Shown here in pieces: positions 23,751-60,184 of a DNA stretch of 64,000 bases. Below the pieces are notes generated by a model. It saw nothing but the letters and a program-made list of their open reading frames with translations, was not told where the DNA came from and did not search any database. This DNA is from an uncultured Sulfolobales archaeon (GTDB lineage Archaea; Thermoproteota; Thermoprotei_A; Sulfolobales; Acidilobaceae): the NCBI GenBank assembly GCA_937921695.1, contig CAKZTZ010000006.1, forward strand, positions 1-64,000, written 5' to 3'. The stretch's first letter is position 1; every line of letters starts with the position of its first letter. The position numbers and the translations under genes were made by a program.

Positions 23751-24884
23751 TTGAACTTGGAAACTCTCAACGTAACCCTGGTCATAGAATGGCATCCTAA
23801 TAGTGTGGGGGGCGTTCAGACCCATGTGAGGGACCTCGCCTCTAGGCTTTCGAAGGCGGGTTTTAATGTGCGTGTTGTAAGCCGTAGGGTTGGGCTGGGT
23901 GATGTGGCGTTCCACGAGGCTGAAGGCTATCATATTGTTGAATCTCTGGTTCCCGTAGATATTCTTATGGTCCCCCCGGATCCTCGGGATCTTGAGGAGG
24001 CTCTTCGTGAAGCTGAGCCTGATATAGTGCATTCACACCACATATTTACTTTAACGCCTCTCATGGCTCTTAAGGTTGCTCATGACCTTAATTTTGGGAG
24101 GCTCGCCACTAACCATACTATATTCTTAGCTTACGACTTTAGGCTTTTGTGGAGTACTGCGTCTATAGTTTTACCCACGAGGTATTATTTGCAGTATGCT
24201 CAGGCAGTCATATCTATAAGTAAGGCTGCAGATGTCTTCGTAGAGAGCATAATGGGCCCAGAGTTCCCCGCTAGGAGGTACGTGATACCCAACGGTGTTG
24301 ACACCGAGAAGTTTAAGCCCCCCACTAGGGAGCCCGACGAAGACTCAATACTATTCATAGGGAGACTAGTATATAGGAAAGGCTTACACGTACTCATAGA
24401 AGCCTTCTCTAGAATAGCGGATAACAGGGATGCCACCCTCTACGTTGCCGGCGGAGGCTACATGGAGATACCCTCAAAAATCCTAGCTAAAGCATACGGG
24501 GTCGACGACAAAGTTAAATTCCTAGGAGTCTTGCCTGAAAGCGAAAAACCTGAAATATTCAGGAAAGCTAAGATAGTAGTAGTCCCCAGCCTATTCAATG
24601 AAAGCTTTGGAATAACAGCATTAGAAGCTATGGCAAGCGGGAGGCCCCTCATAGCTACAAAAGTCGGGGGGCTCGCGGAGCTCGTTAAACATGGAGAGAC
24701 AGGAATACTAGTGAACCCGGGATCCGTGGAAGAGCTAGCAGACGCTATAGAGATGCTCCTAGATGATAAAAACCTAAGAGCTAAGCTAGGCGAGAAAGCT
24801 AGGAGAGAGGCTGAACTAGAATATTCATGGGATGTGGTTATAAATAAAATTATAAACGTCTATAAAACTCTAACAGGGGGATGA
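23751..24884 (+). CDS. Glycosyltransferase family 4
   Basis: A 377-residue GT-B enzyme from TTG 23751 (TTG 23757 also possible), with a ctgggg ribosome-binding motif. The acceptor domain opens with GGVQTHVRDLASRL. The nucleotide-sugar domain has FIGRLVYRKGLHVLIEAF and the E-x7-E motif (NESFGITALEAMASG) that holds the donor. Likely transfers a hexose from a nucleotide or phospho-sugar donor to a lipid, protein glycan or storage molecule; no neighbour points to the substrate. The stop codon is included in a candidate guide RNA that follows. Confidence 0.9.
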   Translation: MNLETLNVTLVIEWHPNSVGGVQTHVRDLASRLSKAGFNVRVVSRRVGLGDVAFHEAEGYHIVESLVPVDILMVPPDPRDLEEALREAEPDIVHSHHIFTLTPLMALKVAHDLNFGRLATNHTIFLAYDFRLLWSTASIVLPTRYYLQYAQAVISISKAADVFVESIMGPEFPARRYVIPNGVDTEKFKPPTREPDEDSILFIGRLVYRKGLHVLIEAFSRIADNRDATLYVAGGGYMEIPSKILAKAYGVDDKVKFLGVLPESEKPEIFRKAKIVVVPSLFNESFGITALEAMASGRPLIATKVGGLAELVKHGETGILVNPGSVEELADAIEMLLDDKNLRAKLGEKARREAELEYSWDVVINKIINVYKTLTGG

Positions 24885-31907: not shown

Positions 31908-31969
31908 TAATTAGGGGCAGTTCTCTTCATCGTATAAGCTTTGCCCGCCTTTATAGCCGTGGGGGCGGG

Positions 31970-32093
31970 CTAGATAGGAGCCCCGGTTTCGTTGAGGCTC
32001 GACAGTCATTCATGACGCCACAGTGATATATCACTGTGAATAAGGTGGAAGTCCCTGGAGAATAAATAAGCATTTAGAGACATGTGTTTCTAT
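31970..32093 (+). repeat. Copy A of a diverged ~120 bp repeat, downstream of tRNA-Gln
   Basis: Shares, in the same order, the blocks ctagat, ggagcc, gacag, catgac, tgata, ctgtg, tggaagt, cctgga and gtttctat with 54134-54254, at roughly two-thirds to three-quarters identity. It holds a perfect 20-base palindrome (32019-32038, centred on gatatatc). A hairpin gcccgcc/ggcgggc (31943-31949 with 31964-31970) lies immediately before it. No open frame. Nature unknown: small RNA gene or remnant of a miniature mobile element. Confidence 0.6.
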
Positions 32094-32098
32094 TTTAT

Positions 32099-32929
32099 TC
32101 ACCTGTATTCTATTTCTGTTTTCACTTGTTTTGCTGTTTCTTCTAGTTTTTTCCTTTGCTCGCTTTTTAGGCTTTTCTTTTCTATTATTATTTTTTGGGC
32201 TTTTTGGGGGTGTGTTTTCTCGATTGCTTGTCTTATTACGTGGTCTGGTACTCCCTCGTCTATTTGATGTCTTGATATTATGTGTCCTAGGCATGTTTCC
32301 ATCTCTTCTAAATGTATTTTTGTAAACTTCTCTGGATAATGTGTTCCCCCTATTCCTGTTGTTGGGTTGCATTCTGGTGTTTTCTTAGATATTGCTTCCG
32401 CTACTGCTAGTGCCATGGCTATTCTGGCTCTCTCGTCGGTCCATTCTTTTTCTGTGCTTCCTATTTCTATGAATACTATGGGTTTGAATGGTCTTGTGGG
32501 GCCGTGGTGTGTGGCTTCTAGGGTTACATGGTATTCTTCTAGGCCCTGTTCTCGGGCTGTCTTGGCGTAGGATGTTAAGAGGGCTTTACTTAGTGCTGGG
32601 TAGGATGTTGATAGTTTGTAGGGTTCCCCTCCCCACGCTCTCCCTGTGGGGTTTCCTGTGTGGTGTACGCTTAGAGTTTTACGTCCGCTCTCAGCTCTAT
32701 GCTTGGAAAGTACTATTATAGCTTCAGCTTCAGGGTCGGGGGTTTCATCTAGGAACTCCATGTTTACAACGTCAACGTTAAAGCCAGCTATGACAACTTC
32801 GTCGGCGAAATAGCATTCAAGGGGGCCCGGGCATTTGCGGGGTTTCGCTTTAAGAACTTCTATTAAATGCTTGGAGGCTCCAGCCCCCGCCGGGTCTCCA
32901 GTGGAGTAGACTATGGAATATTTAGCCAT
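32099..32929 (-). CDS. dtdA: D-aminoacyl-tRNA deacylase, archaeal type
   Basis: A 276-residue zinc-type deacylase that removes D-amino acids from mischarged tRNAs. Start ATG 32929. Signature motifs are LSVHHTGNP, LEATHHGPT, IVFIEIGSTE and GIGGTHYPEKFT. The C-terminal 45 residues are a charged helical tail rich in Lys and Glu. It overlaps the upstream Nudix gene by eight bases, so the two are co-transcribed. The stop codon lies six bases after copy A of the repeat. Confidence 0.92.
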   Translation of the reverse strand: MAKYSIVYSTGDPAGAGASKHLIEVLKAKPRKCPGPLECYFADEVVIAGFNVDVVNMEFLDETPDPEAEAIIVLSKHRAESGRKTLSVHHTGNPTGRAWGGEPYKLSTSYPALSKALLTSYAKTAREQGLEEYHVTLEATHHGPTRPFKPIVFIEIGSTEKEWTDERARIAMALAVAEAISKKTPECNPTTGIGGTHYPEKFTKIHLEEMETCLGHIISRHQIDEGVPDHVIRQAIEKTHPQKAQKIIIEKKSLKSEQRKKLEETAKQVKTEIEYR

Positions 32930-53865: not shown

Positions 53866-54133
53866 GTCCTTGCACCTTAACTTTCAAGGTTCCCCATTTA
53901 CATATAGTATAGCTGGAGGAGCTTAAATAAATGAATGTTAAGCCTGTAAATACTCAACTATTTTAGGACTTCCAGAAGTTACCGGGCAGCCGGCTTCATA
54001 AATTTACGTAAACATAAATAGAGAGTTGTTAATATTCTGGGCTGTTCCTCTACTAGTTTCTCGGGAAACACCTTCTACCCTTAAACCTTTGGGGGGCGGT
54101 GGGGGCATCTCTCCAAGCCCCTTATGGCATAAC
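53866..54133. other. Intergenic stretch, no gene seen
   Basis: Promoter for the TFE-beta gene on the minus strand (atttatttaagc, about 53919-53931), then nothing gene-like. A hairpin ggggc/gcccc (about 54101-54121) stands just before copy B of the repeat. Confidence 0.45.
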
Positions 54134-54254
54134 CTAGATTGGAGCCTCGGCCCCCCGGGCTTGACAGCCGTCCATGACTCTACAATGATAATATAGCTGT
54201 GGGCTAAGTGGAAGTTCCTGGAATCAACGAATATCCGGAGGCAACTGTTTCTAT
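54134..54254 (+). repeat. Copy B of the diverged ~120 bp repeat
   Basis: Aligns over its whole length with 31970-32093. Conserved blocks are ctagat, ggagcc, gacag, catgac, tgata, ctgtg, tggaagt, cctgga and gtttctat. The palindrome of copy A is not kept here, so its pairing is not under obvious constraint. It ends directly before the TATA box of the trkA-like gene, so it may affect its transcription. Confidence 0.6.
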
Positions 54255-54272
54255 GAATATAAGGTTTAAAAT
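54255..54272 (+). promoter_or_regulatory. TATA box of the trkA-like gene
   Basis: gaatataaggtttaaaat lies 29-46 bases before GTG 54301, as expected for a short-leader promoter. Confidence 0.45.
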
Positions 54273-59330: not shown

Positions 59331-60184
59331 CTCCTAGCTTTCTTCAAGAACATGTATATCCTACTGTAATCCTTGTCCCCATAACCCATAGTGCAAGCTA
59401 TCCTGTATAGTTGCTCCGCGTTAGAAGCTATGAAGAGCGTTAAACCCTTATCGCCAGCAGCTCTACGTGCATAGTCAAGGTCTTTAGCTGCGAGGGCTAG
59501 CTTAAACCCTAGGGGGGCATCTTCGGCTGCAAGCCTATTATAGTACCTTTCAGCTATATCTTTAAACATAGTTTTAGATAGTATGTCGAAGAACATTTTA
59601 ACATTAACACCGTAAGATTCAGCTAGAACCATAGACTCCGCTAGTGAGGCGACAGTAGTTATGAGGAGGTTGTTATAAGCTAGCTTAAGAGCGGCAGCCT
59701 TACCTATATCCTCTGAAACATCGAAAACCTCCGAGGCCAAAGCGTTTAGAACCCCCCTAACACTCCTTACACAGTGTATAGGCCCAGATACTAGTATAAC
59801 CGCTTTACCCTCCCTTAAAACCTGGGGGCCCCCTACGACCGGGGTTTCAACATAGCAAACGCCCCTAGCCTTCAAAAACTCTGAAACCTGGACGCTAGCC
59901 CTTGGTGTTACGGTAGAGAAGTTGGAGAACACGAGGCCATCAGCCCTCGGTATCATGGAGGCTACAGTCATTAGAGCTTCATCGTCAGCCAGGAAAGCTA
60001 GGGCAGCGTCAACCTTGCCGACAGCCTCAGCTACACTCTTAGCAACTTCAACTCCCAAGTCCTTAGCTAGGGCCTCAGCTTTCTCTAAACTCCTATTCCA
60101 TAGTATAACGTTAAACCCAGACTCTACGAGCCTCCTAGTTGCAGCGCTACCCATCAAACCTAATCCTAAAATAGCTACCCTCAA
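59315..60184 (-). CDS. 3-hydroxyisobutyrate dehydrogenase family oxidoreductase
   Basis: About 289 residues from TTG 60184, chosen because gggagg lies eight bases before it and the N-terminus then begins directly with the Rossmann fold (RVAILGLGLMGSA). Other features are FSNFSTVTPR, the ETPVVGGP loop and the catalytic Lys in ALKLAYNNLL. The family reduces or oxidises small 3-hydroxyacids or semialdehydes; the substrate cannot be read from sequence. Confidence 0.88.
   Translation of the reverse strand: MRVAILGLGLMGSAATRRLVESGFNVILWNRSLEKAEALAKDLGVEVAKSVAEAVGKVDAALAFLADDEALMTVASMIPRADGLVFSNFSTVTPRASVQVSEFLKARGVCYVETPVVGGPQVLREGKAVILVSGPIHCVRSVRGVLNALASEVFDVSEDIGKAAALKLAYNNLLITTVASLAESMVLAESYGVNVKMFFDILSKTMFKDIAERYYNRLAAEDAPLGFKLALAAKDLDYARRAAGDKGLTLFIASNAEQLYRIACTMGYGDKDYSRIYMFLKKARSYAGI

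Follow-up and report, generated by a model that had tools for sequence, protein, structure and literature searches.

With a probability of about 0.9, the two related non-coding segments of this archaeal genome, here called copies A and B, derive from an IS200/IS605-type transposon of Desulfurococcales-related archaea and are elements of the PATE type (palindrome-associated transposable elements), without tnpB but with the scaffold of an omegaRNA. This interpretation is based on the linkage of the RNA to tnpB in relatives, shared left ends, matches of an independent model, a fold with compensatory changes and identical copies in one relative (G041), and also on the short copy-free gap in congeners, the enrichment of TATA-like boxes and the presence of broken tnpB without a Y1 transposase in this genome. 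Counted against it were the reliance on alignment for the exact ends of A and B, the ill-defined target motif, the absence of Y1 from the copy-richest genomes and the missing TATA-like box of B. The sequence-only reading had suggested either a miniature mobile element or a small RNA family; both ideas were right in part, as the segments appear to be miniature transposable elements with a structured small RNA core, but the TnpB omegaRNA and the IS200/IS605 origin were missed.

In the window, meaning the whole stretch of 64,000 nucleotides analysed, A (31970-32093) and B (54134-54254) are identical at 89 of 119 aligned positions (75% identity). Their likeness over ~120 bp, originally claimed from the sequence alone, was confirmed, as the local score of 56 (z 18.9 against dinucleotide shuffles) was reached by none of the 5000 shuffled pairs, the best of which scored 33. 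A second alignment near 59860-59940 had a score of 33, equal to the shuffle maximum, and no model match, and it was dropped. The perfect 20-base palindrome reported in A is present (CACAGTGATATATCACTGTG) and corresponds to helix 3 of the RNA, and the GC-rich hairpin said to precede each copy belongs to this RNA as its 5' hairpin (stem I), of which the upper part has been deleted in A according to the alignment with L002 and L109. The intervals first proposed hold a real core, but the elements extend further (Table 1), their exact ends having been placed by alignment. The left end of A, GGGGCAGTTCTC, resembles those of other copies, and its right edge was set by alignment to ...AGGGACAAACGG. 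The model match in B starts at 54134, while the right edge given by the model, 54264, comes from a misaligned last stem; read from the sequence, this stem is TTCCTGGA...TCCGGAGG at ~54212-54242. The tips have changed to ATGTGT in A and AACTGT in B where other copies have AAACGG.

Table 1. Coordinates of copies A and B and of their parts within the window.
Feature	Position	Strand	Basis or remark
Copy A, whole tnpB-less element (left end plus omegaRNA/right end), ~174 bp	31914..32087	+	ends approximate
Copy A, TATA-like stretch (GTATAAGC region), putative promoter element	31936..31943	+	approximate; matches TTTATAAGC of other tnpB-less copies in the alignment
Copy A, shortened 5' hairpin (stem I), CCCGCC...GGGGCGGG	31944..31969	+	alignment with L002/L109; fold
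Copy A, conserved omegaRNA core	31970..32087	+	model R1, 56.8 bits, E 9.2e-16
Copy A, putative guide bases, if RNA is made	32088..32103	+	position after right end; copies diverge there
Copy B, whole tnpB-less element, ~210 bp	54039..54248	+	left end GGGCTGTTCC; ends approximate
Copy B, conserved omegaRNA core	54134..54248	+	model R1, 53.6 bits, E 8.6e-15
Copy B, putative guide bases, if RNA is made	54249..54264	+	position after right end

The covariance model (R1) was built solely from copies of other species, and within the window it matched A and B and nothing else (E 9e-16 and 9e-15). The whole genome gave 13 matches at E<=0.001 and 16 at E<=1, and 37 of 60 relatives had matches, one of them as many as 46. 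A search at the DNA level detected two copies besides A and B in the genome and yielded matches for 13 relatives out of the 60. A lack of further copies had been named in advance as a reason to abandon the proposed family, and this reason falls away because copies were found both in the genome and in relatives. Named records with the intact motif were mostly from Desulfurococcaceae/Desulfurococcales, plus one Vulcanisaeta and one Candidatus Alkanophaga, and viral contigs gave no match to it. The sequence-only reading had recognised no tRNA, C/D or known archaeal RNA in the segments. Rfam, at gathering and lax thresholds, had no family, C/D box sRNA included, on the strand that carries the RNA; the single sub-threshold match was a microRNA on the opposite strand of L029.

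TnpB is a nuclease related to the CRISPR enzyme Cas12. Many relatives have the RNA immediately after, and overlapping, the C-terminus of tnpB, and it includes the right end of the IS200/IS605-type transposon, for example in G030, where a PF07282 match (G030:C30:24221-24418) is followed by the RNA at 24476-24619; G049:C15 is another such case. The tnpB frames in relatives read WHRDVVA...GDGS...STATHDPT...W.RWKSL, and the TnpB protein P0001 matches the Pfam family Cas12f1-like_TNB and had no match in a PDB sequence search. A similar stretch on a Pyrococcus abyssi plasmid is annotated there as an IS200/IS605 accessory protein, TnpB-related. Two features of omegaRNAs were found: some members overlap the 3' end of tnpB and the right end, and a conserved structured scaffold is followed by a variable stretch in guide position, the copies diverging in sequence beyond the conserved AAACGG. 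Judged from these features, the conserved sequence is the scaffold of a TnpB omegaRNA and the bases after it are the would-be guide.

No tnpB was seen upstream of 48 of the 77 aligned copies, for which ~0.5 to 1.5 kb of upstream DNA was examined; L021 was later grouped with these because its tnpB match was attributed to L025, the element next to it. In most copies examined, including A and B, a left end runs straight into the omegaRNA/right end, giving elements of ~170-300 bp which retain both transposon ends and have no transposase gene, as is characteristic of PATEs. The left end GGGCTGTTTTC is common to many tnpB-less copies and to tnpB-bearing elements of the same genomes, which suggests that the interior was deleted, bringing the left end up to the right end, which encodes the scaffold. 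In G041, three 242-bp copies (GGGCAG to AAACGG) are 100% identical in unrelated flanks, indicating recent mobility. Terminal repeats and target-site duplications had been proposed as signs to look for; no terminal inverted repeats were apparent in the elements, and no duplication was visible among the fresh copies compared in G041, a relative. IS200/IS605 elements are expected to be without terminal inverted repeats. The target motif adjoining the left ends is poorly defined.

Insertion of A was judged by comparing gap lengths, counted from coordinates, with those of congeners. Here tRNA-Gln and the next gene are 191 bp apart, of which the element makes up ~174 bp, and the gaps after tRNA-Gln in the congeners are 3 and 6 bp in two and 67 bp in a third, none with a copy. 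B lies ~50 bp upstream of a TrkA-like gene, and no copy was found beside the three congener homologues of this gene, whose orthology is uncertain because they share just 35-39% protein identity. A position near a tRNA, which the sequence-only reading took as suited to an integrated element, holds for A and for L003/L093, but is not general among the copies of this genome. L003/L093 (G000:C27) is an own-genome copy located just downstream of tRNA-Gly.

Four helices of the RNA are supported, one of them a pseudoknot (CCACC with GGUGG). Across all aligned copies, 253 cells had changed on both sides, compared to 71 in shuffles, and in the tnpB-less copies alone 127 compared to 41, in shuffles that ignore relatedness; paired cells made up 89% compared to 37-49% in slid versions, in an alignment fitted to a model that contains helices 1, 2 and 4. 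Part of the covariation in the tnpB-less copies may have been inherited from tnpB-bearing ancestors. The tnpB-less copies of this genome kept a standard pair in 69% of the changed pairs. Single-sequence folding, a weak type of evidence, gave z -2.0 for A and +0.9 for B. The loop part of stem I in L028 (G049:C13) is the reverse complement of that in its sister copies L020/L022, as if inverted in place.

Of the 48 tnpB-less copies, 37 have a TATA-like box at a distance of 15-115 bases before the core, compared to an expectation of 10.3 and a maximum of 17 in 300 shuffles and to 2 of 28 tnpB-linked copies, although these counts are not independent cases since copies within one genome are related. 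In several copies, L008 and L021 among them, stem I starts ~26 nt past the box, a spacing that would be expected for an archaeal start site. By the pattern used, B has no TATA-like box, and a working promoter in A is uncertain because its TATA-like stretch sits close to the hairpin. If the left end holds a promoter that formerly drove tnpB, its transcripts would now consist of the scaffold followed by a guide taken from the first flanking bases. In cells with TnpB, an RNA of this kind could target element-free sites for cleavage, and this would favour retention of the element.

It is possible, but rather doubtful, that such elements are active as guides only, their promoter-bearing omegaRNAs serving in trans a TnpB produced elsewhere in the cell, and that they are maintained because selection acts on the element or its host. 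The RNA copies far outnumber the PF07282 matches in some relatives (46 vs 7 in G049 and 39 vs 6 in G005), compensatory changes keep the fold in tnpB-less copies and TATA-like boxes lie upstream of the RNA, all of which would suit this idea. However, paired positions were kept at 85.8% in the tnpB-less copies of other genomes vs 94.0% in tnpB-linked copies, which suggests partial decay, and tnpB was found only in broken pieces in this genome; an intact tnpB of the subfamily may be absent from the assembly, as the genome is 86.6% complete. Two PF07282 matches were above the cut-off here, one being the broken tnpB. The second, considered as a tnpB, was rejected, as it is the zinc-ribbon end of a 363-aa, radical SAM-like protein. 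No Y1 transposase (PF01797), the enzyme that would be expected to move such elements, was found in this genome, nor in seven relatives with 5 to 46 RNA copies (G005, G032, G041, G049, G053, G057 and G059); PF01797 occurs in 4 of the 60 relatives, none of them copy-rich. The availability of a Y1 transposase (TnpA) is not a defining feature of PATEs as a sequence class, and its source may have been lost. We consider equally doubtful a selfish form in which a promoter and an omegaRNA borrow TnpB in trans for retention, a non-Y1 enzyme moves the element and many guides are served per TnpB. With only broken tnpB, no Y1 transposase and diverged tips, A and B are probably orphaned, decaying relics.

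The position of B close to the TrkA-like gene and the conserved fold could also be taken to mean that A and B are domesticated host RNA genes regulating their neighbours, that is, tRNA-Gln or the downstream gene and the TrkA-like gene. The same places are copy-free in congeners where the neighbours were found, the genome has no close second target and the many copies lie in varied places, making this very improbable. Even less credit can be given to an unrelated family of host small-RNA genes with no transposon origin: a conserved structured RNA with no Rfam match would fit, but its fusion to tnpB in relatives, the left ends it has in common with transposons and its identical dispersed copies speak against this.

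Among known systems, the PATE-type derivatives proposed here are closest in kind to the PATEs of Haloquadratum walsbyi (PMC3119063) and the PATE-like element of Halanaerobium hydrogeniformans (PMC7290912), which are short transposase-free IS605-type derivatives with palindromes near their ends, like the present elements have neither terminal inverted repeats nor target duplications, and in some cases retain the C-terminal end of tnpB. They occur in other organisms and belong to other sequence families. The movement of the Haloquadratum PATEs is hard to square with broken tnpA genes (PMC3119063), and the same puzzle is met here without a Y1 transposase. In the accessible text of these two papers, PATEs are described as ends or non-coding sequence and not as guide RNAs (PMC3119063, PMC7290912), whereas the present elements retain the whole omegaRNA scaffold, which is supported by covariation, and in most cases a TATA-like box as well. 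The SisTnpB1 omegaRNA of Sulfolobus islandicus likewise lies at the 3' end of tnpB and the right end, with two inverted repeats near its 3' end and a guide from flanking DNA (PMC10640517). It was described together with tnpB, from which the present copies are mostly separated, and the S. islandicus target motifs TTTAA/TTTAT (PMC10640517) are not seen beside the present left ends. Archaeal omegaRNAs including circular forms, also non-coding RNAs of IS200/IS605 elements, are expressed in archaea (PMC12558985); that paper, when searched by word, showed no mention of copies that are solo, standalone or orphan, in contrast to the mostly tnpB-less copies here.

A literature search combining TnpB with MITE or standalone omegaRNA, subscription journals mostly excepted, found no such archaeal family. 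Loci of omegaRNA without tnpB or iscB have reportedly been noted in a bacterium. Shortened tnpB-less elements are already known, but no description was found of an order-wide family resembling complete guide-RNA genes with their own promoter. If the tnpB-less copies are transcribed, one TnpB could use dozens of dispersed guides per cell, resembling a CRISPR effector with many guides but without an array, and PATEs, which were described before omegaRNAs were understood, would become linked to RNA-guided nucleases. Recent identical copies without a detectable Y1 transposase also raise the concrete question of how the elements move. Annotators should regard stretches of this kind as transposon ends rather than host RNA genes.

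The putative guides of A and B had exact matches in their own genome at the loci themselves only. With 2 mismatches, 2 further places were found for A and 3 for B, and as the reversed control patterns gave 1 and 0, no clear target is indicated. Just past the right end, at the would-be guide start, the stretch TTTCTAT is common to A (32087-32096), B (54248-54254) and L115 (G000:C10), and A and L115 share the longer TTTCTATTTT. For these shared stretches, which were chosen post hoc, a rough simulation gave ~0.005 for the shared 10-mer pair and 0.0001 for the shared 7-mer triple.
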